Below, piece by piece: positions 16,701 through 46,790 of a stretch of 64,000 nt of DNA. This DNA is from Polytrichum commune (Eukaryota > Streptophyta > Polytrichopsida > Polytrichales > Polytrichaceae). The DNA is taken from contig OX485805.1 of assembly GCA_950295325.1 (NCBI GenBank), positions 28,197,501 to 28,261,500 of the forward strand. Direction: 5' to 3'. A model generated the notes under the pieces. It saw only the letters and a list, made by a program, of their open reading frames with translations, did no database searches and had not been told where the DNA came from. The translations under genes were made by a program, and so were the position numbers. Every line of letters begins with the position of its first letter. Position 1 is the first letter of the stretch.

Positions 16701-17605
16701 TCAGTAGTATATTTATATTGGCTCCTAGCCGCATTTATGTAACGTGCTGGAACTATTAATACTCAATGTGTTGAATGTATCATAATAATGCAGGTGAGAG
16801 TGATGCCCTCTGGTGAGATTGCCACAGTGAAGAGTATTGAGCAAGATGGGCAACCGTTGAGTATAGCAAGAGCTGGAGAGGGCGTGGATGTCGGTTTAAA
16901 TGGCATAGACCCAGGAATGCTGTCACCTGGCGGGGTTATTTGTCACCCTGACTATCCAGTGCCTGTAGCTATACGTTTTGAGATTCGATTATTGACATTG
17001 GAGATCAGGATTCCTATTCTTACTGGCTCACAGGTTAGTTTCGTCTGTGTTCTTCCCTCGTGAGTAATATCACATATATTCCTGGTTCAGTGCAAATCCG
17101 TGTTAATCAGATCTCAAAGTCCATCTACTTGCTACTTATCCTAACTTCGTTTGTTTTGGACAGGTGGTGTTGCATGTTCACCATGCTAGACAGCCTGCAA
17201 GAGTGGCTCAGCTTGTCTCATTATTAGATCCAAAGAAGGGTACAGTGCTTCGACAGCGCCCTCGCTGTCTGACTGCCAATCAAAGTGCCATTGTAGAGGT
17301 AAACAAGCATTTCTATACCGTTTGTCGTTATGATTGAAAGCATGTGCTAGATGGAGATGAGGTGATTCTTGTTGGATATGGTAATTAAACATATTACACA
17401 GGTGCATTCCTGAATCAGCTGTATGAGTTGTTTCCTTCCTGGTTCTGAAAGCAGTCCTTCTGTTGCCATGTTGCAGATAGTGCCTGATGAACCAGTTTGT
17501 ATTGAAAGATTTACAGACTTTCGGGCTTTTGGTCGAATAGCTTTGAGAGAAGGGGGAAAGACAATTGCTGTGGGCATAGTCACACGGATATTGGAACAAA
17601 AATAA
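10778..17605 (+). CDS. HBS1: HBS1-like translational GTPase (ribosome rescue)
   Basis: HBS1 is an eRF3/EF-1A-family GTPase that with Pelota/Dom34 releases stalled ribosomes in no-go and non-stop mRNA decay. Exons: 10778-10907, 11977-12165, 12535-12714, 13178-13252, 14238-14638, 15037-15147, 15485-15981, 16370-16538, 16794-17033, 17164-17298, 17477-17605. All joins keep frame and give about 751 residues. The start [14 protein letters not shown] is the acidic N-terminus of plant HBS1. A RanBP2 zinc finger (W70, C72, C75, N79, C86, C89) follows, then the [12 protein letters not shown] motif. GTPase motifs: G1 GHVDAGKS at about 327-334, GVTMT, G3 DAPGH at 404-408, G4 NKLD at 470-473, G5 VPVSA at about 506-510. 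Domains II and III end in [11 protein letters not shown]. Exon 8 uses a weak GTTCGT donor. No internal stop is present, so the gene is probably functional. It converges with the dynein gene. Confidence 0.95.
11208..11440. repeat. Duplicated block in HBS1 intron 1
   Basis: Partner of 12230-12485 in intron 2. Shared words include CTTGGTGATGAATTC and GATCTAAGCTTGTTGATG. On the minus strand both copies stay open and encode similar peptides (INKLRSLL then LLEFITK then SLVV). In the part compared, silent and replacement differences look about equal, so I see no selection for protein. The pair is best read as a partial tandem duplication or two copies of a dispersed repeat. Confidence 0.75.
12230..12485. 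repeat. Duplicated block in HBS1 intron 2
   Basis: Second copy of the intron 1 block at 11208-11440, in the same orientation, about 1.02 kb downstream. Similarity continues past the core to a motif near CATATTGGCCTTATGATAAC, which matches CATATTGACCTTACGATAAC in intron 1. Confidence 0.75.
13733..13966. mobile_element. Small inverted-repeat element in HBS1 intron 4
   Basis: The segment starts with ACACTAC then ATGTGCAATTAGGTTG, and near the right end has the inverted complement CAACCTAATTGCACAT then GTGTAGT. The interior is AT-rich and noncoding, which fits a MITE of about 230 bp. No convincing target duplication was found. Confidence 0.6.
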
Positions 17606-18189
17606 TTGCCATTTATTCTTTTAGTTAATCTAGCTTATAATTCACTCATATATGTGCTTTTGCAAAATCTTGCTCCAAGTACACAGTGTATGTAATCTTG
17701 TAATATAGGCCAGGTTGGCATGTTGGTTGTAGACAGTAGATGCCTTTTCGTCATCTCAGTACATAGTGTGGGCTGGGTTGTCAGCAATACGACCTGATCT
17801 TAGGGGCATTCTTATTCATTATCAAAGTGAAGATGCTTGTGCTCATCAATCGGTCATATATCTCCCCCCCAAATTACTGACTATTGACTATTGAATCTAA
17901 AATGGTTATCATATTCTGAGCAAGTAGTCCAATCTTGTATAAACCCATGCCTTTTTAGTAACCATTTTCGGAGTCACACCTAAGCACACATCACTCAAAC
18001 ATAGGTGTTCAATTAAGATTATCAACCGAATTAGGCATGTCTACCCTGCTGTCAATCACAATGACACAAGTATGTGCTCTTAGGTTTCCTAAAAAACGAA
18101 TTGTGTGGATATGTCGGATATGTCCACTTCAGACTGTTCATTTTGTATCAGGAGAACGCTTAAGACTACAATAAAAATTGTATTTAGTG
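17606..18189. other. HBS1 3' flank
   Basis: It presumably contains the HBS1 3' UTR. AT-rich text with AATCTTGTAATATA-type sequence near 17690 could serve polyadenylation, but no site can be fixed. No other gene was seen. Confidence 0.45.
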
Positions 18190-21665: not shown

Positions 21666-24600
21666 CTAAAGATGAAGGAGAATCTTGACTTCGACCCCCT
21701 GTAACCTTCGCATCTGAACCCCAATCTTGACACTTGAAACGACAATCTTCGTGACTCACAATTGCATGTGGAGTTGGAAGTGTTTGTTATAGGCCCACAC
21801 AATCGATGCAAGGTTTTGAGTGTTTGGGGGGTCCTGTGAGTTCTTACATATCGGAGAATGCGGATGGAGCCTGTACTGCCACCCAAGAGGAGGATTGGGG
21901 ACTCCTCTGTGAACACCATGCACGAAAGCACGCAATCGTCGATCAAATACGCCACCACTGGTTTCATCACCGAATTTTGCATGTCCCAAAGCTGCCATCC
22001 CCACATCACATTCAAACAAATGATGTAGCATCATTGGTTCCATCGTCCCAACGATTGAGAAGCACTAAACATCTCACCCGAAATTCATAAGATACAAGAT
22101 AGAGACGTGTCACATGACACCTCTCTTTGTCTTGTATCTTGTATCTTGTATCTAGGTGGCAGTTAGAGAGGGTGTCACATGACACTCGACGATACAAGAT
22201 AGATTGTGAAGACATAATATTAAGTAGCAAGTCCGAAATGACCTTCTCAAAAGAGCATCACACCGGCGTGTGCCGGTTTGATGCTTTGTCAAGAGCAAAG
22301 ATAGCGCCACTTTTGAGTTTTACTTAGGATGTTTTCAATTTATTTGGGTAGTTACTTTCAATGCTTAGAATCAAATATGTCGGTTTCTAGGAGAAAACTA
22401 ATGCCAAGTGGCAGTACAGGTTCTAATCTAGGCTAAATCACAATCTAAACACCTAAAAAGCAACGGGAAAGTTGGTGAGGTCAAAAAGGTAGTTGCACTT
22501 TTTGAAAAAGTCTCCCGACACCCGCATTGAAAAACCTTTTTGATACCTTTTTGGAGCTACTATATATTTGATTAATTATCCATTCATTCACCCTTGTTTT
22601 GCAAGCTTGTCCCTCCTTGTTGAGGTAATATTGCAGCACCTAAAGGTACCCTCCTAGCATTACTACTTAATGTTACGGACCAGTCTAATCAACACATCAC
22701 ACCAATTTCGATGCCACTCTTAATCACTCAGATAGTTAGTGTCGTCACGTAGAGTGTAAGCTAGCTGACAGGTTTCACAAAACACGATTTACCTCAATGT
22801 GACCATCCATGGAAGCCAATGCAAAGACACATGAATTTGTGAATGACCAGCGGACATCTGCAATGCTCATGTTGGTGGTTTGGAAGACGAGCAGGGCTCC
22901 TTCCTGCCAAGTGATCCCAATAACATCAATTGTCGATATGAACAAGCTGTAAAGCGCAATGATCAGTATCGAAGGTAGAAATACCATAACCTGTGAAAAT
23001 AAGGTGATTCACATTGAAGATCTGGTCTGACAATCATGAGATGATTTCCCAAGATAGACGAGAAGGATTCATGAAGAGTGCAAGTTGTTTCATATTTTCT
23101 TGCCCTGTACAAAAAATGCTACAATTTTTCAAAGTGGAAAGTTGTCCAACCCCCTTCTCATTCACTAGATTCTCCCTACACCGAACACGGTAATCTGCAT
23201 TTCCATACAGAACACCGCCTAAATCGGTTACCTCATGAGTACATTAACACTCGACTCTCATTGGCTACACTAAGTGTACACGCATTGAAGTTGCTGCCGA
23301 GCCATGATCCATTTTAGAAATGGCACTTCACCATTATGATGGCGGTCTAGTGCACGGCTTGAGGGTGGTTAACGGGTTATGGTATTTCTACCTTACAAAG
23401 TTACCAAAGAAAGAAGAAAAGAAGAAAAATGAAGAAAAAAATGATGGTGGTTGACGATGCGATGATGGTGTGTTGGCCATTACCAAGGAAATTAATTGTA
23501 GCATTCAAGATTGGCTTCATATGCTTACAAGTTTACTTCCCGGAGAGTGTGTCTATGATCCCGAGGTGCGAGGATGTTGAGGCTTGACGTTGTGGGCTTG
23601 AATGTTATGGAATCATATTGGCGTGTGGTATTAAGGTGAGTGCAATTATTGCAGACATTTTGAATATTTCAAGATATGTAGTGGTTTGACAACTAAATAA
23701 AACTCACATAAGCACATTAGAAAATCTACACGAGGAACGTACTCATTTAGCATGTGTTCTTGAAGTCAAGTCGAAAATCTCTTAAATTCTTGAAGTGAAA
23801 TTCATGGATGATCTAGAGTGTTTTACATACATACATACATATCTCATTATATCGGATATGTACATTTCAAACTTGGCTATGTGTATCTATGTGTTTGAAA
23901 TCATTATAGGTCATAATCCACTTTAGGTTTACACACCTTTAGCTTTTAAGGATCGGGGGTGTGTTTTTCCAAGTTACATGACGACTTGTTCAAACAATCA
24001 AAAATATTGAACTAATATGTATTCGATCTATGATGTATATATACATACTTAGCACAATGTACAAAAAAGAGGAAGTGAAATAAATCCATATGTGACAATG
24101 ATACTTAGATCTAGATGGTGTGTATTTGAGTCTAGGTTATTTTTTATGAGCTCAAATCTCCACGTCCTTCATTTAACATACATGCATGCTTTGATTGGAA
24201 TGATGTGCATTATAAATTTACTAATATTAGGTATGGCATTTTGATTGCTTTTAACTAAACTATCAAGTAGTAATCTCAACCCCCTTTATGTGACAATCTA
24301 AAATGGCCCTCTTAGACCTTAAGGGTTAAGAACATAAGGTATGTTGCCCTATTCTAGAGGGCTGCATGTTGAGAATTTTTTGGCTATTTATGTACAATGA
24401 CATTTGGCATGAAAGTTTTTTTCTATGTAGAAGAAATGAACAAAAATCTACCATAATGTTTTTAAAAATAAAATGTCATTTTTGAATTGATTATAATCCT
24501 TTCGACAAAGTGTTCTATAATAGATTTCAAAAGGTCTCATTTCAAACTTGAAAAACTCCTATCATAGAATCAAATTTTGTCTCTTATGGATAAATTTATC

Positions 24601-27600
24601 TTTACACACTCATCATGTGTCTTGGAACCCAACACCTAAGGTCAAGGCACCATAGTCGACCATGTCCATTTAACCAGTCACTAGGGTCATGTAATGCCGA
24701 CATGGATGAGATCTATATATTTTAGGCAAACGAAATTAAAGTTTATGTGATGGCGGCTTGTGAATGATTACCCTCATAAGAGTTTTTGACAATTCTCAAG
24801 GCCAAGAATTAACATTTAGATGAGTGGTTAGGGTTTAACCTATAGGTCAACTGTGTGTTATCCTAACTTTACCACTTCAAAATTTGTGACAATTTCCTTA
24901 TTCAAAAAATTTAAATTTAAATTTCATCCTCCTTAGAATATGTTCTCTTTGCAAGAAAAATATTTCCCCACTATTACTCCTCCTAAATAGATGCAAACTC
25001 TCTTATTCTATCGGTTATAGATGTCTCAACCTTGATGAGCTAATCACACACTAACTTCGCTTTAAATACCCTCACCAAGTGTCCTATATCCAATATCCTA
25101 GCCAACCAAACATAGTAAAGGAATTTAGGAAGGAGTTTTCTTGTCCTTGAATCCGTGCTTACCTTTACATATATAGAGAGATTGTATCATTGTGTTGTTT
25201 ATTTTTGGTACTTGTCTCTCCCATGTAAATGCTTATAAATTTTCTTCATGGAGATGGGCTCCACCTACCTCCAACACCTCCACTCCCTTATTATTCCATT
25301 GTATTGGGAACTTTGGGAGCCCTAGGACCCTATTTTGTGAATTTGTTCCCTAGAGCTTGACGAAAGGGCACCCCCTTGGTAATAGGACAACATACCTTAC
25401 CTTTGATTATGCAAAAGTGGTTTAATTGGGTAATTAGGCACAGTGTTGCACCAACCTGATCTTCACTCCAAAGGCGAACGGTCCAATCACTGCTGCAACT
25501 CAAAAACAGGCTTGATATAAATGGAGACCAACGCACCTGCAATGTTAAATTTACGTTATAATGAACATAAGTGACATATGTTCCTTGTAGTGCAACTATG
25601 CATCCACAAGGGGAGGTTGGGCAATTTAGAAGAACAAGTGTTGAAGTGGACAAATCATGGTGATTGGCTGGCCTCTATTAACCAAGTTTTGCCCATTCTA
25701 CCACATATTTTCCTAGGTGGTAAATTGCCCAAACTTCCTTGTGGGCCACAAAGCCTCATGACACACATGGGCTTCCATTTTGGGTCTCTTATCCTCAATG
25801 TGTTGCCAAATCTTCTCTTAACCATATAGAAGTTCATTACATACTCACATTTTGGATGGATAAAAACCAGTGATGGCATAAAACTATCACCCACATCTTG
25901 CACTAAAGCCCTTGATTATGATTATGGCAGATAGCAAACATGAACATAGCAAAAAGTTCTTGATGTCTCACAAACCTACTAGGTGCAAGCATGGTAAAGT
26001 GGATAGCTCTTGATCCTTGCACAAGTTTAAGTTTAAGTGATTCAAAACAATTTACTAACTTTGAATTTTGTGAGAAAAAAAAATCATAAACATATTAAAA
26101 ACACATTGATTTACAAAGCCAAGCAATTTATGTTGACAAAAAAAATCTCAAAAAAGGTTTGCATCTTTTAGAAGATGGTGCAAGTGGGTGTGCAAGTAGT
26201 GAAATTGAACAAGTAGTTGTTCCAATTTTGTTTTAAATATGATAGAATTACATTGAATTGATGATTTCCTACAAAAATATTTGATGATGACTTCAAGTAT
26301 GATGTATAATGAATTCAAGGAATATGGAAACATAAATCAAAGTTCAAAATAGTTAAGGTCATGAAATTTACAGCTTAAACCAAATCTAGCCATTTGCTTT
26401 TGAGCATAACTTTTAATGATAAGTTTCAAGGATCTAATCATGGTATTCTACATTTGTGTGCGGTATGTCAAAACAAAGGCATGCTAATAATAGAGGTCAC
26501 AATGAAAAGACATTCAATTTAAACAACATTGTGCTACAACTTTTAGACGTTTTACCAAAAAAACTATGGTTTAAAAATACCGTAGCACTTTTTTGTTCCA
26601 CTTTACCATGCTTGCACCCTAATATATATATACACTAGGAGGAATCCCATCCGTTTCAGCTTGATTCATCCTATGTGGCAACGCTTTTTGTTGCCAAAAC
26701 CACTGTATGGTAGCTTGAGTGGTGCGTTGCATTGAACAAGTTGCTTGCAACCACATAACAACTACTCAACCATGCTTTTGATAGCTGGTTGAAATGAACA
26801 TGCAGTCTCCTAGGGATGCGAAAAGTGTTTTAAAGAATTTATTTCGCGTTTCAATCATTCCATAATATTACTCAACCTTCATAGCATGCTCCATGTGACC
26901 AGTAATACTGGGCTAATTGTGCCCCTATAATTCTTGGCGGATTTCCCATGGACATGAACCTGAACACCTGCATTTTGAGCTTTGACCCCTGTGCCTAACT
27001 TGGGCTGTAAGACAATTTATCATAGAAAGAGAACAAGCATTGCAGGCTGAATAATGTTAATGTCCAGAAGAAGGAAGTGCGAGAGACGAACCTGATAAAC
27101 TGGACCATTGTGGCCCAAGTATGTCATCATGTACTGCTCACTATAAGATCGGTCGCATTTGTAGATGGGCCCTTCCTCTGAACCCACAAGGTAAATCCTA
27201 TTGTCCCCTCCACCCAATCATCCACCACATGTTCAGAGGAGATTTTTGGTGATTTTTAGGAATTCTCAGTTAAGGTGGCTTTACACATGAAAGGTGAGGT
27301 TTTGTTGGAATGGCAAAGTTTCTGTAAGCTTCATAAAATAATCACCCCGGGTCTTTGGGAGAGAATTCAAAACAGAGTCCTGCTGAGCGCCTGGATATGA
27401 AAGGTTGCGGTTGTGCACTTTTGCTCTGAGTGGGGACCTTCTTCAACTTCATCAGGTTCATGAATTCCAAGTCCTTCCATTTCCCACAAGTACGCACATA
27501 GTCATAAATTGAGAAAGTACCAAAGTACCATCAATACAAATGAACAATTCATAACCCACTACATACATGGGTGACTCTGCCAAAGGACTTCCTGAGAACA

Positions 27601-30600
27601 CCCATTGCTCCTAGAGATCACAATGGTGAGTTTTTAAATGTGAGTACAGAAACAGGAGTTTGTTATGTTTGACGTACATGCACATGTATCTATGACAAGC
27701 GTGTCTGTTGATTCATTCATTCACATTGTGATGGTATATATGCAGTTTGTAAATTACAAAAATAGTCTTCGGTGTTTGTTGGTAATACTTGGTTCACATT
27801 GTATAATCTACTATACATATTGGAACTCTAGAACAGAGAGGACGCATGAGCTTTGACACAGTCGATGTTCTAAAGTTCCAAATCGATTGGCTATTGGTGA
27901 CAACGTGTTGAGCAGACAGTGAAGGAAAGCCAAGGACATCAGTTCGTAAGCACAAGTATGACAAGCCAAGATTGCACCTGCTCAAACTAAGTTATTGCAC
28001 ATTTGAAAAGGATGAACAGTGAGGGCACATGGGTGGTGACAAAGTTGTCGTTCCAAAATGGACAGCCATCAATGGCGACATGTTGAGCAGATGGTGCCGG
28101 GATGGCCTGAGACAGCAATTCATATGCGCAAGGGCAACGGGCAAGGTTGGGATGGGCCCAAACTAGTATAATATATGTTGGTTCTTAGCAAGGAGGACCA
28201 GGGCTAGCTCAAACAATTCTCACCTTCTTGATGGACCATTGAGAAACACGGCCGTCAGTGGAGATAGAGACCAGGGACTCCCCATGCTCATGAGAATGGT
28301 CCACCCATTGCACCTTCCAAACAGGGTCACTGTGTTTCCCAGTGGCAACAGTACTCTTTACTATTGGCGTCACATCCTTTGGGTTTCGTACATCATAAAT
28401 GGCCAAATTGCCAGAGTAGAATCCAACTGCACTGTAATTGTTGTTCTCTTATCAATGCTCAACAACTTGATAAGGACTAAGTTAGAACTCCCCACAACAC
28501 CATTACACCTTCCTCTTCAATTTGTGGACCTTGTGTGCATAGCATAATTTGCCCATAATCGTATAAGGGAGCTGGAGTATGCACTTATACTCTAATGGGT
28601 TGGTAAGTCCATTTTTATCATTCACTAAGTTATTGTTTGGTGATCAAGGGTTTTTCCTCTTTTTTCTTGATTTTCAATAGGAGCAAGAGTGCCGTGGAAT
28701 TCAAAGATTAGTGGAGGTTGCAAGAAGCACGTATTTCCAATCAAGCAAGCAAGGAGGAAAAGAAATGCACCAGCAAGGAGGCTAGGACTTGATGTTGCGA
28801 AGTCCAAAGAAGTGACACCCGCTTGTGTAGGAATCACGGAGTGTGGGTAACATGGATTTTTCGGGGACCAGAATGCAATCATGCCATCTCGTTGGTTTGC
28901 GAACTCAAATTCACCATAGCCTACTGCAATCAAATTTTTGTTCACCTGCCTCAGAAGATGAAGATTCCTGCTTCCATCAGTCTTCAACAAGGTCTGATTA
29001 TGAAGAATTCACTGCGCTGATTATGGTAAATAATGTGAGCAGATGTATAGTGTGACTTACCCTGGTCGAGACTCAACCCTATAGTGTGGCCCACATTATA
29101 CACCATTACACAAGAAAACAACGTTCAACTCTAGTTACACTTGTCATTCCCTGTGACATGCCCACCTCCTTCCCCTAGGTTGGAAGTCTATCAATGCATA
29201 GTGTTTTCAATCCAATAGAAAAACTGCAATCTAAAACATGGTCTATGATATTGAAGAATGTTACTCAAAGTAAATGTTTTAAACCAAAAGTGAGTTCTTT
29301 TTTCTATCCAATTCACCTACTCTACCAAAATCTGGTTCTGCCAACTATGACATCTTCTCACACAAAGCAACACCATTGAGTGGAAAATTTGAAAATGGTT
29401 AGAAATAATAAAGATTCAGTTGCTTTACCTTGTTCCATGCCATACAACTTATGTTTCGGCCTGCCGTAATCTCACATTCAAAGTCCCACAGCAAGTGCAC
29501 AGACCCAGTTGATGGTTCCGTATCAGGCAAAATGACTTTCGGAACCACTTCTTCTTTCTCCTCAAACTCGGCCATTGGATCTATTGGCCCTGCTGGTGGG
29601 GGAGGGGCTGGTACCTTTGGTATGGGATTTCCATTCTTGTCCAGTTCGGGGGGAGGTTCAGGCTCTGGTATAATCTCCCTTGCCCTGAAGTCCATGTATT
29701 CCAACAGCTGTATCCAAATAATCATGGCGTGGGTTGCATTTAGTTGGAATCGGCTAAAATGCAGAACAACATAAGAACAACATAAAAATTTAGAGTGCCT
29801 ATCCCTCAAACAACTTAATGTCAAAAAGTTGGGTTCTTGGGTCCTCTTTGCAAATCAATACAAATGACGACACACTTGTACTGGTCTTCCAGTTTTCATT
29901 CCAGTGTGTATATGCACAAAGGACCACTGATGCAGCTTGTAGCTTCACAAGAAAATGAACGATTGACAGATCCACAAAAATAAAGATTAATCAAGAATTG
30001 AATACGTCATAAGGTTAAGTCACGAGCATTAGACTTATCCATTAACTCAATAGGACATTCCAGTGGGCGTTGGTTGTTTTGCATACAACATCTACCATGT
30101 TTGGTAAGTGTTGTTGCATGCTTGGAGGTAGTGTGGAGGTTTGAACAAAGAACATTCTATATTGGTTCATTAAGGGTCAAACTCATTTTGGCATGCCAAG
30201 AGGTGCTAAATGAGTTTGGCCCTCAATGAACCAAAATAGGTTGATCTTCATTAAAAACCAAATACAAAACCAAATACAAAACCAAATAATGTTTTGGAGC
30301 ATGTACCACAAGTGGAAATAAAATAATGCTTTTCTATGCAAAGCAACAGATGCAAAATAATAAAGGGCGACTCCTAACGTAAAAAACTCATCGAATTAAT
30401 TGGTATCTCTATTGATTGACAAAGAATAAAGCATCTAACATTTGCATAGATCATAACTTGGGGATGTGTAGTGGTCAGGCCTAGTGGTTTTGCTAACATG
30501 CCTAATCCTCATTGGAAACAATGAAGCATCTTTATTGCCCGTAATTGATGATCATGCCATGCCTGACCACTACGTCCAGTATGTGCATATGTCATCATAG

Positions 30601-33600
30601 GATTGTTTGTAGTCAGCACCCAATACCTATCCTACCGATATTGTGGCTCAGTAGGTTGGGCACCTAATGTATGCATGCCTTTTATGGTCACTCTTTTTAA
30701 TCGGATAGTCATAGTTGAGTGGTGTGTGTTGAAGTGTAGATCTAAGAACCGACATCATAAAGACATGGGTTTGAAAAAGTTTGGATTTCGTGCTCAAAAT
30801 TTGTGAAACATTCTAGGCTCAATAGTCAACATAATTTAGGGGGACCTATATGACCATTTAAGGGCCATTTAATGAGCTCAAGAATTTACACTATGAAGAT
30901 GAATAAGATATTCATATGAGCTCCAAAATTTGTGAGGCAAATGGCTACAGACATGGTTTGGATTTGCATGATTCAAATCATAGAAGAACTGGTGCAAAGC
31001 TAAAAGTATCCATTTAAGGACATGCTTACCTTACTACAACTCGTGGCAAGGCTCCTTCCAACCATTACCTAGTTCATAACGAGAGAGCTTCTGTCTTGAA
31101 TCTCCACTGTGGAAAGACAACATGTGCACCATGAGGAAGAAGGGTGGAAGAATTCATCACCACATCATGGTATGTATTGAGCACACAAGCTCTTTCGACT
31201 GCTTCCAAAGCCTTGAAGAGCTTGGGGATTTTGCTGATGTCCACGTCGGGTGCAACACGTAGTTGGGAATCCACTTGGCTGTCCATTGCACTAAGTCCCG
31301 TGGCCACAGAAGACGGGCTCATTGTTCTCATCATATCATCCACCTGCCCTTCTGTTCCTCCACTTGTCGACGGGCGCCGGGAGGCTACACTGGTGCGTCT
31401 CGATTTTTTACCGAAACCGGATTGCCTTCGCGAATTTAAACCCCCACTTGTCGAGGCCCTCTTGGAGTTCCATCCACCTGCCGTAGACTGTCGCCGTGAT
31501 TCCTGCATTGCTCAAGCCCTAACTCCAATACAGTTACTTACATTCATCAATGTCACCATATCATTCTTAACCCTCAAAAGGGCTAAGGGGTTCAATGTAC
31601 AGCCATACACACAATTTATATGAGCATCACCCAGTGTAATAATCATATTTTAACTTTTAGAATTTAGAATTTATTTTATTCATTGTCGCATGTCAAGGAG
31701 AAAATTAAAATACACTCACATGTGTATTTGATGATAAAATACTAAGTATGTATTTGCATCCAACGGCACCCATGCTATATACTTTAACCCAAATCCTCAA
31801 TAGCATTGATGTACTCAACCAATTTGAAAAGTGCACTAGAAGAACAAATTAGTTTAGATTAGGTCACTTTTGACACATTTGGCTGAAATTGAAAGTACGT
31901 AGCTCAAAGACGCATTTTTGTGCATGGAGAGGCCCAGATTGGGCCTCTCAGATGCTTAGAGGTTAAGCGTGTGTTAGGAAATTCTCATTCTATTCTAGCT
32001 TTAAGAATAAATCCAATAACATTTGTAATATGCGGACTAAAACAATTTTTTGATCATCTTGGAGGAGTATCTGTACCGGAGGACTTGTCGGTGGAGTAAC
32101 ATTGGGACCATCCAGAGCTGTGAAAATTTCTGGCAACAGCACAACCGTGGTTGTAGGATTTGTGGTTTTATTATCCTTGCTCCCGTATGGCACCACCTTC
32201 CAAGGTTGGTATGGATCCGGCTTTGCCTTCCCCTCAACGGTGTCCACAATATCCCATGAGTTTGCCTGCCCACAACCATTGCATTCAAGCACTTAAGTGA
32301 TTTGAAAGGGGGTGTTGTCTCTCATATTTGAGATTTTATATCAAACCTTGCTAGAGGTTCATACCATTGTCGGACTGGTATCACCCTTTTCTTTAAGCCA
32401 CATGGATTTATAGAACAAGGATTTTACCTCTCTTTTTTAATACCAGTAGGTCATGGGTATTTGCGACTATATTGTTTTTGATACAAATCAGGTCTATATA
32501 CGATCCAAAAACATCTATACCTAGGTATAGTTACCCTAGTATCAATATGTATTGATATTGTATTGAGATCGTAACCCAATTAAAGACTCAGGGATACAAA
32601 GATTCACTGATCAAGTATCAATATACAACTAATATTACAAGTTTGATGCCAGTCAGGTGGGTTCTTTGATACCATTATTAATATAGTGTATTGATACCAT
32701 GCATGCACCTATAAACCGATCAAACATTGGTCCATAACAATTTCATAATCACAAGTCCAACTATAAAACCATGTCGTTGAGACCTAGTTACCAGGGTAAT
32801 TATAATTAGAACTTCAAGTTTCAGAGACCTTTTAAGCCAAAAAGAACTTGAACTGTTGACACGTGCATACTCTAATACTGCTCAAAGTGGTGGACATTAT
32901 GGAAGGCGTGTTGTCTTAGGACAAGAACACAAACACAACATGAGAAAATGAGTATTGAATTCCAAGGCTCACTTGGACAGCATCTGATTGAGTAGACAAG
33001 GCTGATGCTTGAGCTTCCTTGTTTTTTTGAAGGCTGTAGAGGGTTTGACTCACATTTGCCTGGTAGTTATCACTGCCTAGTTTAACCTGCACAACTTTCA
33101 ATGACCAACGTTGGCAAATATCAATGATCATATCTTTTTTGAATATGCTAGAGCTGCAAGATAAATTTGAGAGGACATAAACATTACTATATGAAGGAAG
33201 GGATTTTACTTGCCTGATCCCCAGAAAGTTGGGTGAACATGATACATAGATCAATCCTTGGTCTATTTGTTTCCTTTTTCTCCAAATTTTCATTCTCAAT
33301 CTAATTATTCTATGCACCAGAATCATACCCTAAGGAGCTCTTCATAGCGTGCATTTCTCTCAAGAACTTGGTTGACATTTTCAAAGGCGGCATTCAGATT
33401 GTATCCACGCAAGCTCAACATAATTTGATGGGGACTATCAGTGATTGTAACCGAGATGAGCTTCTCCAATTCCTGCAGACGCAATCATTCAGCCATCAGA
33501 ATTAAAAATTAAAAAAATTAAAAAGAAGAAGAAGAAGAAGACAATGTAATACCTTTACTCCATATACATGAACATGAGCATAATAGTACATGAGATTCAT

Positions 33601-36152
33601 GCCATTGATACAATATTTGGTGATTACTGTCATTAAAGCACCTGCTGTGAAGAACACAGTGGCGTAATATGGTTCATCCTTCTAAAGGATATTCTATCTT
33701 TTTAGATGTTCACAATGGTGTTGGATAGCGCTGTTGAGTTGAGCACACGGAACCCCTTTGTTAATCTAATATTATTCACATTGGATATGATGGTCTGTTG
33801 GTACTTTTGATAGATGCCAATACAAAATACCTTCTCAGCTGTTGGTGTCACAATCGGAGCTGGAACCATGACTACTTTGCGTTTTTGAGCACGCGGAGTT
33901 TCGAGCATCATAGAGCCTCGAAAGCTTCTGGACCTTCGGGATTCTTGACCATCCGAAAGGTCTTGAAGTTCTATGTCCGTACCCAAGTCCACTGTCTCAG
34001 GTGTCAGACTTCCCGCTGTGCTAGTCACTGAGAATCCTGTCCGGCTGCAACAATTTTACAACTTATATAAAAAGATTTTATCATACTGATAAGCTGGGTT
34101 GATTATCATATTCTTGGCCATTTAGAAGCTTGAACATGGAATTTTTAAACTTTACTAAACTGATTGTGCTAAAATGTGTGGGCAGATGTATAGTATGACT
34201 TACCCTACACAACCCTATAGTATGGATCACAATATACACCATCACGCATGAAAACAAATTGCAACTTACAAAACATCATGTTCCCATGATATGCCCACCT
34301 TCCCCTAGGTTGGTAGTCTTCCAAATGCACTCTTTTTTATCCATTAGAAATGATTGTAACCTACAACATGGGCCTCTGGTGTTTAATACTGTGGATTGGT
34401 GAATAGTGTGCACCCACGCAATTGTCCCCAATGTTATTATTGTGGAAGTAAGCTAAAATATGTGGCACACAGTATTTACCATAAGCAGTGTATTTAGAAA
34501 GCGGCTTAACAAGAGTTGACCCTCAAGATGCTACAACACCAATCCTTAAGACACTAAGGGCTGATATACCTATGGTAAAGCATTCAGAGAGACAGAATCA
34601 GAAGGGAAAAAGAGGTCATCCCACCTATAAATTGGAGCAGAGTGTTCAACATCTGTAAATTGCGACTGCCCACTGACACTCATGAGCTTCTCATGCAAGA
34701 CTGTTGGCTTCAAGGTTGTCAATGGCTTTGGAGTCACGTCTTTCCCGTTCTCATTAAACACCTGAGAGATTTTCAAGATGTGTCCCCATGTGACCAACAT
34801 TTATACATCACAATGTTGGAATTCTACGTCGAAACCATGCCTTGTGTAATTATAATTTCACATGCTGATGAAAGTTTCAATCTTCAGTTCCACATACTCA
34901 AGATGCTTTTCACCCCAGTTTTCACCCTTTCAAAAAAACATAAAAAGATTCCAGAAGAGTTTTCTTAACACAGATACCATGGTGGTGCCAAACTACTGTC
35001 TTTGGAGGGCTTTGACCAAATGACAGTCAATCCAGAAAGGCCCATACTCACCATGCACTACTTTGTTCAGAATTTGACCAATCATATACAAAGCATGGTG
35101 GATGCAGTACAAAAAACTACACTCACTTGAATGGGTTCGTCCTGGCCCTTCTTTTTCCTCCCACGCATGGGTCTCCCTGATCGATTGCTAGCCCTGCACA
35201 AAAGCTCTCATCAACAACAAAGATTTTCTCATCAAACCCTAAGTCCACAAAACTGCAGATTTGTCCGGATACTCTAAAAATGATTCCATTTGCACCAGGA
35301 GCCTTACACATATTACTCAAGAACCTTATGGCACATTTGATGTCATCCTCTTACTTTTCTGTATGGAATTTGTTTGAAAACTGGAATCAGAATTGTGATA
35401 TGCGGTCCAATCATTCTTACTTACTTTAGCCTCAAATGAAATTATTCTTTGCATATCCGGATAACGTAAGAACGATTCCATTTGAGCTGAAAGTCTAAAA
35501 AAGACTACACAATAATGTTTAGGTTATGGTACATTTGACTCTGCCACTTCCTTTTTCTTTTCTAAGGAAGTTGTTCAGAAAGAGAGAACCTAAGAATGAT
35601 TCCATTTGGACCGGGAGATCACAACACACACTAACTCAAGAATGGCACATTTGACTCTGTTATCCTCTCATTCTTTTGTGTACAAGTTGTTCGAAAACTC
35701 GAATAAGAATCGTAATGTGCGGTCGATTCGTTCTTTCCTACTTACTTTGACGAGTAGGAGATTTGTGAGCTTCCCGATTGACGTCGGGAGGATGGATAAG
35801 TGGAAGTCTTCGATCCGGGCGCCCCCGTTTGCATCGCAGCCGCATCCGCTCGTGCCTTTGCCAAGTTGAATTGGTTGCGATTGTTCTCGCGCTGCCCTAA
35901 CGGCAAGACGGGCAATCCCGTTACGCCTTGTTGTGACTTGCTGGGAGAGTTCGGCCGCTTGGGGGACCCGGAGGCCGCGTTCTCGCCCTTCTTCGCGTCC
36001 ATTATCAGTGAGTTCGGTTTGGATTTCCCAGCCGATGATGCTCGTTTGGGAGACCCTTTATCCAATTTCTTATCAGACTGTTTCGCAGACCCGGGCCGCT
36101 CTGGCGATCCTTTCTTGGACCCTGCTTCCTTTCCTTACTTTCCCTCCGCCAT
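21666..36152 (-). CDS. DNAI4: Axonemal dynein intermediate chain DNAI4/WDR78 (IC138-like)
   Basis: WD-repeat intermediate chain of inner-arm dynein f/I1, acting in the axoneme of motile flagella, here presumably sperm. Minus-strand exons: 36152-35746, 35193-35127, 34761-34625, 34044-33831, 33472-33329, 33086-32973, 32265-32077 (3' border uncertain), 31502-31161, 29707-29429, 28945-28771, 28426-28224, 27473-27346, 27197-27092, 25536-25456, 22903-22793, 21991-21848, 21713-21666 (last one tentative). Frame holds through all joins, about 960 codons against about 850 in human DNAI4. Hallmarks: VFNENGKDVTPKPL (exon 3), a serine/arginine-rich segment (exon 8), AVERACVLNTYHDV, ISCMAWNK, NLIAVGYGEFEF, DPVWKVQWV, SISTDGRVSQWSIKK, IYLVGSEEGPIYKC, GHNGPVYQVRWSP. 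WD repeats fill the C-terminal third. Exon 1 has an in-frame TAA at 36137-36135, six codons after the ATG at 36152. The next in-frame ATG is 36002, giving about 912 residues. Confidence 0.9.
22090..22206. repeat. Clustered inverted repeats in dynein intron 15
   Basis: GTGTCACATGACAC, a near-perfect palindrome, occurs at 22107-22120 and 22172-22185. GATACAAGAT at 22091 and 22191 faces a triplet of CTTGTATC at 22131-22152. The region can fold into alternative hairpins. A separate small hairpin, ACCGGC...GCCGGT, lies near 22263. Confidence 0.7.
27840..28150. repeat. Diverged tandem duplication in dynein intron 11
   Basis: Two units of about 180 bp share GTTCCAAA, GACA then TGTTGAGCAGA, CAGTTCGTAAGC/CAATTCATATGC and GCAAGGTTGGGAT/GCCAAGATTG. 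Noncoding. Confidence 0.5.
29035..29240 (+). repeat. Dispersed repeat in dynein intron 9
   Basis: It matches 34180-34375 in intron 3: GCAGATGTATAGTGTGACTT, AACCCTATAGTGTGG, then CCTTCCCCTAGGTTGG. It has the same orientation in both introns, so it is either a mobile element or an intra-gene duplication. Confidence 0.7.
30162..30234. repeat. 27-bp-arm hairpin in dynein intron 8
   Basis: TTGGTTCATTAAGGGTCAAA begins the left arm, and the right arm ending in CAATGAACCAA is its inverted complement with two differences, both G:U compatible if transcribed on the plus strand. The loop is about 19 bases. Confidence 0.75.
30468..30573. repeat. Small inverted-repeat element in dynein intron 8
   Basis: Exact 13-bp inverted ends GTAGTGGTCAGGC (30468-30480) and GCCTGACCACTAC (30561-30573) enclose about 80 bp. 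It could be a micro-MITE or a structured intronic element. Confidence 0.7.
30640..31050 (+). repeat. Dispersed repeat copy (partner 20000-20350)
   Basis: Ordered matches to 20000-20350 include AAAGACATG, GCTCAAAATTTGT, ATTCATATGAGCTCC and GACATGCTTACCTTA. It lies in intron 8, about 100 bp downstream (in transcription) of exon 8. Confidence 0.65.
34180..34375 (+). repeat. Dispersed repeat in dynein intron 3
   Basis: Partner of 29035-29240; see that entry for the shared motifs. Spaced about 5.1 kb from it in the same orientation. Confidence 0.7.
35270..35745. repeat. Tandemly repeated dynein intron 1
   Basis: The phrase AATGATTCCATTTG recurs at about 35279, 35472 (one change) and 35594, and CACATTTGA-TGTCATCCTC-like phrases follow each time at about 35333, 35528 and 35648. 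The segment with CTTACTTACTTTAG near 35418 matches CCTACTTACTTTGACG at 35738, so the exon 1 donor region itself was duplicated. Most of the intron is built of these units. Confidence 0.75.
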
Positions 36153-37080
36153 GGCGTGGTAAGTGTTGATCTCAATTAATTGCACTCAGCCTCACGAATC
36201 TCAGAGTCGCCAAGTTAGGTCAAGACCACGAAACCCTAGCAACGGCAGGTGCGATATCGATTTTGAAGCTCAAAGTCCACATATAGTTTACATGCGGCAA
36301 ATTATTCGTCTTCCTAAGAACGATACTGCACAAATTAGATCACCATCCTCACATTTGGAACCACGCAAAACACCACCCCCAGACTGCACACCGTAGAGAA
36401 AATGGCCATCGAAGGAGATGGAGATACAAGAACGTGAGTAAGTTACATGCACCAATCGTTGTTCAGTAATCCGACATCGAATTGATGTGTTGCATCATCT
36501 ACAAACTTGCAACTATTGGATCCTTTCTTGGACCCTAGTCCCTCCTTTCCTTTCTTTCTCTCCACCATGGCGCCGATGGGGGGTAATACCTATTAATCAA
36601 TCCGGTCCTGCTTAATTCATTGGCACTCAAGCCCACGAATCTCGAGAAATCTCGAGCCAAGTTAGGTCAGGACCACGAAACCCTAGCAACCGCGGGTGTG
36701 AGATCTATTGTTAAGCTCAGCATCCACCATTAGGTACAAGCGGAAAATTTGTCTTCCTAAGAACGATACCCCACAAATCAAATTAACCTCGTCACAAAAC
36801 TGAATCTCCGAGTCGCCAAGTTAGGTCAAGACCACGAAACCTAAGCAACAGCGGGTATATGAAATCAATTTTGAAGCTCAACATCCACCACTAGTTTACA
36901 AGCGGCAAGTTTGTCTTCCTAAGAGCGACACTTCACAGATCACCCTTGTCACATTCAGACCCACGCGAAAACCACCTCCGGAGTGCATACCCTGGAGAAA
37001 ACAGCCATGGAATCAGGAGGTCACGACAATAAGAACGTAAGTTACATGCATCAATCGTTGTTCAGTAATTCAACATTCAA
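36105..37080. repeat. Triplicated dynein promoter/first-exon block
   Basis: Three diverged direct units lie at about 36105-36515, 36517-36800 and 36801-37080. All carry CCAAGTTAGGTCA then GACCACGAAACC and TCTTCCTAAGA. Units 1 and 2 share GGATCCTTTCTTGGACCCT, which is the reverse complement of the start of dynein exon 1. Units 1 and 3 share GAGAAAA then AAGTTACATGCA then CAATCGTTGTTCAGTAAT. Unit 2 has its own minus-strand ATG at 36568-36566 with a short exon-like ORF. The block probably contains the dynein promoter. Confidence 0.85.
37007..37036 (+). CDS. Candidate divergent first exon (very short)
   Basis: ATGGAATCAGG begins at about 37007 in a good plant start context (CAGCC before it), and the frame MESGGHDNKN runs into a consensus donor GTAAGT. 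The paralogous position in unit 1 (near 36403) also has ATG, about 11 codons (MAIEGDGDTRT) and a GTGAGT donor, so start-plus-donor architecture persists in both copies. No second exon could be recognised downstream. It may be the start of a divergent gene with distant exons, a decayed one, or coincidence. Confidence 0.3.
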
Positions 37081-37137: not shown

Positions 37138-37164
37138 CTTCTTCTTCTTCTTCTTCTTCTTCTT
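37138..37164. repeat. CTT microsatellite
   Basis: An uninterrupted run of about nine CTT units. At 37279-37308 follows GGTTCGGTTTC repeated about 2.5 times. Confidence 0.85.
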
Positions 37165-38815
37165 GATCTCCTTCCTCCATGCTCTTCCCTTACGCCAAAG
37201 GTAGGACGGAGGGGGACGATCGGGTTGAGGAGTGATGACAGGTAAGTCTGGTAATGTCCCACTCCCGTGACATCCTTCCCGGTTCGGTTTCGGTTCGGTT
37301 TCGGTTCGTGCTCCACCACCCATACACGGTATGCTAACACGGTATATCCTACGTCCTACATTCTTGGGATTTTGGCACATTGTGGCTTCAACACAAATCC
37401 CATAATATTGGTAACCATTAAAGGACTTAGGGTCTCAATTTATGACCAAATACACAAATTAACACGGGCCTCATCAAGTTCATAAATCGTATCTAATATA
37501 TTCATGGGTTAGAACATTGTTTTATACATTGTCTCATGTCAAGCAGAAGGAAAACATTTATTCATACTTGAAATTGATGATCAAAATACAACATATGTAT
37601 TTACATCCAAGGTCACTCAAGTTGCGCATTTGAATTCAAATCTTCACTACCATCAAGGTATTCAAGGTGTATTTGAAGAATGAGTTAATTTTTGTTATGG
37701 TCACTTTTAACATAATTGACTCATAATGGAATATATATGTAACTCAAATGCATGTGTTATACATGGAGAGGTCCAATTTAGACATGTTAGACCCTCAAGG
37801 GTTAAGTCTCGATAACGTGAAGATGAAGCAACACCCATCGTCCATGTTGATGGCAACATCAAAGGACATGGTTGAGTCGCATGGTGTTGTAACCCTTAAA
37901 GGATGAAGGGGCTCAATGTCAACACATATGCATGATTTCAACAAGCCTCACCTAGTCTTACATTCAAATTTTTAAAAAAATAGTTGATTATAAAATAGTA
38001 CTTAGTAAAATATTTGAACATGTCAAGGGGAATATGCAAAATTACAAATATGCTTTAGGATATATAAGGCTCTCTCTCTCTCTCAAACTACTTTAAAGAG
38101 TGTTTGCATTTGTTAGTTTTGGATGTAGACATGTAGAGTTTTGGAAATGTGTGGTAGATGAGGACATATGACAATCCTTGGCAAAGAGCAATAAAGTGTT
38201 GAAAAATGGATTCATAGATTACACTCATTTTTGGTACGCTCTTGTTGTTGTTCTCCTTGCAAGATATCATATTGCTTATGGTTTATAATGCGAGGGTGTT
38301 GAATGTGTTTGTGGAAGTGCACATTGGACAACATGCATCTCAAAATGTGTTACCAAGATATGCATTAGGAAGTGGTTAGGACACATGTGCGAGGATGTGA
38401 CACTCGTGTTAAGAGGTCCCGCATAAATGATTAAAATGACCCAAAAACCCTATCATATGTTGGTAGAGCATTAAAAAGGCCATATCATGACTCAATTTGT
38501 GAAAAACTACGTCCAAAAGTTGGGCAACTTGACCATAGATATAACATGTTTGGCAATATGCAAGCTACTAGAACAACCTAAAAACTCTAGCATAATCACT
38601 AGAGACATCAGATCCAAGCATAGTGAAAATGGCCTCAGGACGCTAGCCACATAGGCCATAAAATCACTTGGTAGGTAGTGTTCAAAGCATGTCTTCATGC
38701 CTCATGCCTTAGAAGAGAGTTTAAGGGTAGTCCATGCCAAGGGAGTTGTCTATTAATGAAGGACCAACTTTGGAGACATTTTGGAAAAGTTCGGGCAATA
38801 CTAGAGGCAAACAAC

Positions 38816-44100: not shown

Positions 44101-44765
44101 GGTTGGAGGTGTGTGCATGTAGATAAGCACAAGCCGTCAATCAACTGTATTCTGGTGGCTTGTTAGAATGTGGAGGGCCGACGGACTTTTGTGTGTTCCA
44201 CTAAAGCACTTCTTAACCTGCAAGTGCCCATCACCGAAGGGTTGAAGACCGGTTTTAGGAGGAAGAGGCGTGCACATGTAAATTAAGCACGAGTTGTCAA
44301 CCAACCGCATTCTGGTGGCCTTCTAGAATGTGGAGGGCCATGGACACGGGCCGCCAGACTTCCGTGTGTTCATAAAGCACCTTTTAACCTAGAAGTGCCC
44401 ATCACCGAAGGGTTGAAGACCGGTTTGAGGAGGAGGAGGTGTGCACATGTAGATCAACACAGGTTGTCAACCAACTGCATTCTAGCGGCCTACTAGAATG
44501 TGAAGGGCCACGGACACAGGCCGCTAGACTTCCATGTGTTCACTAAAGCACCTTTTAACCTACAAGTGCCCGTCACCAAAGGTTTGAAGACTAGTTATAG
44601 GAGGAGGAGGTGTGCACATGTAGATAAGCACAAGCCGTCAACCAACCACATTATGGCAGCCTACTAGAATGTGGAGGGCCACAAACACGGACCGCTAGAC
44701 TTTTATGTGTTCATTGTAACACTTTTTAACCTACAAATACCGGTCACCAAAGAATTATAGGGGGA
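44101..44765. repeat. Satellite, 171-bp unit, about four copies
   Basis: The word GTGCACATGTA (one change in the first copy) recurs at about 44113, 44272, 44443 and 44614, spacing about 158, 171 and 171. Each unit carries TAGAATGTGGAGGGCC, a TTTTAACCT motif and GAGGAGG. Divergence is about 10-20 percent by eye. No coding sense. Confidence 0.85.
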
Positions 44766-45424: not shown

Positions 45425-46790
45425 CCACGTTGAACCCTAACATTAATGACCGTCATTGCGTTTCCATGATCACTCCGACTCCTCCCTCCCGCCGGCACTT
45501 CGTCAACGCAAACCAAACATTATTATGTTGGGGTAACGTGGTCGATCGCTATTAACGTCTTTCACGCCTGTTACCATGGATTACCATTCGGAGTTATGTG
45601 TTGCTATGGTTCTTTCAGAGATGATAAGTTTGTAAACCCCAAGTAACATTGTTTTTATTCTATTGTAATCCCACGAATCCCAACATTAATGACTATCATT
45701 GGCTTTCCACGTTCACTTTTGAGTCCCACCGGCACTTGCTTGACACAAACAAACACGGTTATGTTTGGGTAAGGTCATAGCTATTTGACGTCCTTCACAC
45801 CTATTATTGTGGATTACCATTTGGAGTTTTGTGTTGCTATGATTCTTTTACAGATGGTAAATTTGTAAACCCCAAGTAACACTTTACTCTGTTGCATTGT
45901 AATACCACGAATCCCAACATTAATGACCTTCATTGGTTTTCCACATTCACTTTTGAGTCCCACCGACACTTGCTCGACACAAACAAACACGGTTATGTTT
46001 GGGTAAGGTCATAGCTATTTGACATCTTTCCTCGGGGGGTTCACTCCCTCTTATATTTTGCATACACGTGCGTTCGGGACCTATTTATTGGGGGGGTTAT
46101 TTACCTTGCAGAAAAGATTATAAGGTGATGGTATTTTACATGTAAACATGGTTTATTATTTTAAAATCCCCTATTTTACATGTACATTTTTTACAAAATT
46201 TATCTACAATGAATATATTGGACCCTATTTTTTATCGCACGTTGTTCTACGATTTTCGCCAGTGAACCCCCCAAGCATCTTTCACACCTATTACTGTGGA
46301 TTACCATTTGGAGTAATGCTTTGTTGTTGGGATTTCCAAACTCGAGTAACACTTCATTCTATTTGACTTGAATCCCACAAATCCCAACATTAGTGACCGT
46401 CGTTGCTTTTCCATCCTCACTCCGACTCCTATCAGCACGTGCTCAACACAAACAAACACAATTCTACTTCGGAAAGGTGGTAGCTCCTCACACCTTTCAC
46501 ACATGTTACCATGGGTTACCATTTGGAGTTTTGCATTGCCATAACTTTTACATCTAAGATTTTTTAAGCCCAAAGAATACTTTATTCTATCATATTATAA
46601 TGCCATGAATCCCAACATTAGTGACTGTCGTTGTTTTTCCATCAGTCTGACTACAACCAACATTGCCTCAACACAAAGAAAACACAACATATGTTTGGGT
46701 AAGGTCGTGGTAGCTCCACCCCCACTACACCTTTCATACCTATTACCGTGGTTTACCATTTGGAGTTATGTATTGACCTCACCTAGTGGG
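45425..46790. repeat. Tandem array, unit about 235-243 bp, about five copies
   Basis: AACATTAATGAC (AACATTAGTGAC in later units) starts units near 45439, 45682, 45916, 46388 and 46614. Each unit holds CACAAACAAACAC, TTATGTTTGGGTAAGG, CACCTATTAC, GGATTACCATTTGGAGTT and TAAACCCCAAGTAACAC. The long gap between units three and four is explained by the 245-bp MITE at 46031-46275. Confidence 0.85.
46031..46275 (+). mobile_element. hAT-like MITE, internally deleted copy (245 bp)
   Basis: Ends CTCGGGGGGTTCACT and AGTGAACCCCCCAAG (inverted, one mismatch), with an exact 8-bp target duplication CATCTTTC at 46023-46030 and 46276-46283. It keeps both outer parts of the 629-bp copy at 3358 but lacks about 380 bp of the middle. 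It sits inside a satellite unit. Confidence 0.92.

Follow-up and report, generated by a model that had tools for sequence, protein, structure and literature searches.

A probably harmless stop at the sixth codon of an IC138/DNAI4 dynein gene, with a downstream start and a donor-like site that may bypass it

How might a dynein gene that carries a stop at its sixth codon still be translated? On the minus strand of the window (the whole 64-kb stretch of DNA analysed), the ATG at 36152 is followed by GCG GAG GGA AAG and then by TAA at 36137-36135, so that the frame from this start reads M-A-E-G-K-stop. A sequence-only reading of the window had described this stop, and had added that the lysine/glycine/serine-rich style continues behind it, that the other exons are free of stops and that a duplicate at 36568 has AAA at the same codon; all four observations hold, as detailed below. 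To account for the stop it had offered a start at the ATG at 36002, a polymorphism or sequence error, or transcripts that begin in the other unit. Among these options the start at 36002 is the most likely, and the stop probably has a plain explanation. The TAA is probably harmless, because a restart is possible 50 codons further on, or because the same bases may splice the stop out.

The interrupted frame belongs to a gene that, by its sequence matches and its WD40 repeats, is IC138/DNAI4 (WDR78), an intermediate chain of the inner-arm dynein I1/f; the broader term dynein used before can therefore be narrowed to the intermediate chain IC138. Sixteen exons, joined through GT-AG introns, give 947 codons with one stop, that at codon 6 (Table 1). 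Against Protein Data Bank chains, the best match of the model is Chlamydomonas IC138 (8glv, E = 6.6e-118), followed by the DNAI4 chains 8j07 (1.1e-106) and 9e5c (1.4e-71), each stronger than the other dynein intermediate chains, which reach 4.1e-69 or weaker. A chain labelled CFAP100 (9fqr, 1.2e-106) gives an alignment nearly identical to that of the DNAI4 chain, and one DNAI4-named chain (9y6s_7O) ranks lower, at 1.5e-61, under several other intermediate chains. The C-terminal WD repeats are present (Pfam WD40, 1.1e-11, 45.1 bits, cut-off 27), and similarity to IC138 covers query residues 118-366 and 584-940, with nothing significant between them. From the gene together with the style of its promoter, we infer that the source is a land plant with flagellate sperm. 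IC138 by itself is no proof of motile cells, since one study reports it even in the alga Ostreococcus, which is without most other dyneins (PMC2239267).

Table 1. Positions of the modelled exons, of the features around the early stop and of the upstream duplicates
Feature	Positions	Strand	Basis or remark
Unit 1: further diverged copy of the upstream region	36802..37076	-	78.2%
Unit 2: copy of the sequence in front of exon 1	36611..36778	-	80.5%
Unit 2: incomplete copy of the start of exon 1, with AAA as codon 6	36519..36572	-	87.0% over 54 nt
IC138 exon 1 (coding part, modelled)	35746..36152	-	donor AAA/GTAAGT, phase 2
Five codons before the stop (ATG GCG GAG GGA AAG)	36138..36152	-	sequence; start context GCCATGG
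In-frame TAA, codon 6	36135..36137	-	sequence
GTAAG donor-like site; candidate alternative 5' splice site after 36139 (AAA/GTAAGG)	36134..36138	-	PWM 5.85
44 open K/G/S-rich codons, coding-like, from stop to next AUG	36003..36134	-	coding score and composition
In-frame ATG, context ataATGG, likely start of the main ORF	36000..36002	-	sequence
Exon 2	35127..35193	-	16-exon model
Exon 3 (VFNENGKDVTP, aligned to IC138/DNAI4)	34625..34761	-	model and alignment
Exon 4	33831..34044	-	16-exon model
Exon 5	33329..33472	-	16-exon model
Exon 6	32973..33086	-	16-exon model
Exon 7	32077..32265	-	16-exon model
Exon 8	31161..31502	-	3' edge picked by frame and similarity; 31164 possible
Exon 9	29429..29707	-	5' edge picked by frame and similarity
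Exon 10	28771..28945	-	16-exon model
Exon 11	28224..28426	-	16-exon model
Exon 12	27346..27473	-	16-exon model
Exon 13	27092..27197	-	16-exon model
Exon 14 (WD repeat)	25456..25536	-	model and alignment
Exon 15	22793..22903	-	16-exon model
Exon 16	21848..21991	-	provisional 3' end of the gene; frame open to 21635

Elsewhere in the window, an open stretch on the plus strand at 15419-15985 matches an EF-1alpha-type GTP-binding domain (Pfam GTP_EFTU, 1.2e-33; NCBIfam EF-1_alpha, 1.7e-51, under its cut-off), and perhaps belongs to an HBS1-like gene. An open stretch on the minus strand at 17186-17620 has a sub-threshold match to Pfam DUF6349 (E 0.0004, 20.9 bits, cut-off 25). Tandem arrays lie at 44192-44752 (period 171 bases, 3.3 copies) and at 45487-46030 (period 234 bases, 2.3 copies). 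The segment 52001-54750 has a strong strand bias, being rich in G and T on the plus strand with C down to 5%, and its minus strand contains A/C-rich broken frames that include LLLGGDVQLNLDP, which we take to resemble a decayed 2A-like motif of retroelements; three ORFs scanned in this segment gave no Pfam match. A search of the 64-kb window against Rfam returned 0 matches at the gathering score.

Behind the TAA, the dynein frame runs without a further stop from 36134 to the donor of exon 1 after 35746, a length of 129 whole codons, and only 0.76% of 20,000 base shuffles of the same stretch remain open. The 44 codons that separate the stop from the ATG at 36002 comprise 10 lysines, 6 glycines and 9 serines, and their coding score in the dynein frame is reached by 0 of 20,000 intron windows and by 0.39% of 20,000 base shuffles. 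The score, which is in part a matter of composition because it was trained on the later exons of the same gene, is 0.48 in this frame and 0.24 and 0.00 in the other two, where stops are present. The openness of the 44 codons by itself is weak evidence for coding, and is also seen in 5.8% of intron windows and in 11% of shuffles.

The region in front of exon 1 is repeated upstream in two units. The duplicate at 36568 reads ATG GTG GAG AGA AAG AAA GGA..., with AAA (lysine) as codon 6, and it differs in length from the start of exon 1 by 3 nt, which preserves the frame. The two copies are 87% identical over 54 nt. The AAA fits a TAA that is the derived state, without proving the derivation. Unit 1 was considered for polarising codon 6 and set aside, its start being only 63% alike over 30 nt and placed beside a microsatellite. 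This microsatellite consists of nine copies of CTT/AAG at 37138-37164, just past the unit-1 ATG at 37180. Across 36209-36886, units 2 and 3 keep the element GCTAGGGTTTCGTGGTC intact and unit 1 has a changed form of it; we take the element to resemble the plant telo-box.

Our preferred reading, to which we give a probability of roughly 0.45, is that the AUG at 36152 now opens a five-codon upstream ORF and that the protein begins at the in-frame AUG at 36002. The early stop, the short ORF in front of it, the frame and context of the next AUG and the open, homologous body that follows are all present in the DNA. Between 36152 and 36002 there is no other ATG in any frame, so that a short ORF precedes the main AUG with none intervening, and the ATG at 36002, which lies 132 nt past the stop, has the strong context of A at -3 and G at +4; from this ATG on, the model runs for 897 codons without a stop. 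The earlier proposal of a start at this ATG is well supported by its position, frame and context. In the scheme that we propose, the ATG at 36152 would probably be the original start, and one base difference at codon 6 would have turned it into the head of an upstream ORF of M-A-E-G-K-stop. Transcripts would begin upstream of 36152, and ribosomes would either terminate at the TAA and resume scanning, or in some cases bypass the first AUG. The next initiation, at the AUG at 36002, would yield a protein that is 50 codons shorter at an apparently unconserved, lysine/glycine/serine-rich N-terminus.

Several points bear on how such initiation might proceed. A review states that reinitiation follows short upstream ORFs and needs a minimum spacing, and also that eIF3 enhances reinitiation markedly only where the mRNA has specialised sequences (PMC5972666), the latter of which counts against the upstream-ORF reading. 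Also against it is the near-perfect context of the ATG at 36152 (GCCATGG), which implies that leaky scanning would be low. Seven more ATGs lie in 36480-36153, so that which AUG comes first depends on where transcription starts. Moreover, the coding look of the 44 codons would also be compatible with alleles in which the stretch is translated, or with an error in the sequence.

What would be lost by starting at 36002 appears small. Exon 1 ends in residue 136 of the model. Of the four alignments shown, three first become significant at residues 118, 143 and 151 of the query, equivalent to 124, 149 and 157 in the model, and the fourth has only a non-significant stretch in the N-terminal region. 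Nothing in Pfam matches the part of exon 1 downstream of the stop at 0.01. As homology in these alignments becomes significant no earlier than the final 13 codons of exon 1, the affected N-terminus seems to be unconserved, and dropping the first 50 codons, or even almost the whole of exon 1, would cost little or nothing that is common to the aligned relatives.

The last of these points also applies to a fourth option, which the sequence-only reading overlooked. The bases of the TAA form part of a GTAAG motif in the same phase as the donor of exon 1 itself, and it is conceivable, at about one chance in four, that the change producing the TAA also produced a 5' splice site, so that translation from the AUG at 36152 would begin MAEGK-ASNRSGRPMRG... 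If base 36139 were joined to exon 2 at 35193, exon 1 would lose 393 nt, or 131 codons with the stop included, without a shift of frame, and the product would have no stop over 816 codons; the residues skipped by this join have almost no similarity to the aligned solved relatives. With a donor PWM built from just 14 donors of our own gene model, a narrow basis that weighs against the idea, the site scores 5.85, second among the GTs of exon 1 to the exon's own donor (AAA/GTAAGT, 6.37) and well ahead of the third best (2.95). Of the 15 modelled donors, whose leave-one-out scores range from 2.80 to 8.38, 8 score lower than this site, which is in this sense as strong as those of the gene's introns. 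The duplicate reads AAAGAAAGG at the same place and has no GT there. Among the other single-base changes that would create a stop in exon 1, 1 of 64 also yields a donor this good, a fraction that is not a significance level because the splice-donor idea arose after the site was seen.

Other comparisons temper this splicing alternative. Among 908 non-donor GTs in 37200-21800, 56 score at least as high as the TAA site and 116 pair with U1 equally well or better; among the 15 gene donors, whose U1 energies lie between -3.8 and -9.6, 12 pair more strongly than this site does (-5.0). The real donor of exon 1 has one base different, is a little stronger and sits closer to the acceptor. The match in phase is weak evidence, as phase 2 is shared by 10 of the 14 GTs listed for 36152-35741. 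A composite of the two mechanisms seems slightly less probable still: one substitution would create both the stop and the donor that removes it, and the allele would make two IC138 proteins, one starting at 36152 and without nearly all of exon 1, the other starting at 36002. If true, the nonsense change would be one that cancels itself.

Somewhat less plausible again is that the TAA is a base error of sequencing or assembly, or belongs to one allele, and that codon 6 is usually a sense codon with translation from 36152. In its favour are a lone stop in an otherwise open exon, the coding score of the stretch immediately after it and the lysine codon that the duplicate carries at codon 6. However, the other 15 modelled exons have neither a stop nor a frame error, so that the sequence is not visibly poor.

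The proposal that transcripts come from the other unit fares worse, and we regard it as improbable. Here transcription would begin in unit 2, at an ATG (36568) of similarly strong context (GCCATGG), and splice straight to exon 2, which would make the TAA intronic. In its favour, 4 of the 8 GTs listed in unit 2 could be spliced to exon 2 with the frame kept, and 36453 (4.97) and 36507 (4.78) score highest among them. All four, however, score under the TAA site, the two best pair weakly with U1 (-3.8 and -1.4), and the tail of the unit-2 frame past the repeat has a non-coding score and a GC content of 0.37. Splicing of an upstream exon into exon 1 past the stop seems unlikely, for the 12 AG sites there are not preceded by pyrimidine-rich tracts (6-44% pyrimidine), although this range overlaps the 28-67% of the gene's modelled acceptors.

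Least probable of all, marginally below the preceding proposal, is an early pseudogene with the TAA as its first disabling change: an apparent start followed by a stop would look like this, but the 947 codons of the 16 modelled exons contain no further stop, a frame-keeping GT-AG chain can be drawn throughout (with edges chosen with the frame in mind), and similarity spans query residues 118-366 and 584-940 with a gap between. Two further routes were considered and rejected. The context TAA GGA does not resemble familiar contexts of stop-codon readthrough. RNA editing of UAA occurs in plant organelles and is not known in nuclear mRNA. The literature matches listed contain nothing on the present case, and as the searches were few this does not imply its absence from print.

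If real, the locus illustrates how a nonsense change near the start of a gene can be tolerated, through a downstream start or through splicing, and annotators should place the start at 36002 or seek a very short first coding exon. The case adds little that is new on dynein itself.

Compared with known IC138/DNAI4 proteins, the gene is most alike in the N-terminal third and the WD repeats, where it gives its best sequence match, and it differs in an N-terminus of about 120 lysine/glycine/serine-rich residues without detected similarity and in the in-frame TAA at codon 6. The preferred reading, a five-codon upstream ORF followed by initiation at 36002, resembles short upstream ORFs of the GCN4 type with reinitiation, in that the ORF is very short and the next AUG in any frame follows 132 nt on in a strong context; unlike that system, the putative upstream ORF here is in frame with the coding sequence and probably derives from the coding sequence itself. 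Exonic mutations that create a cryptic 5' splice site are a known kind of event, and the putative site at the TAA is like them in that one base difference gives a GTAAG absent from the duplicate. It would differ from the usual created cryptic site in that the same base would both make and remove a stop, with the frame kept.
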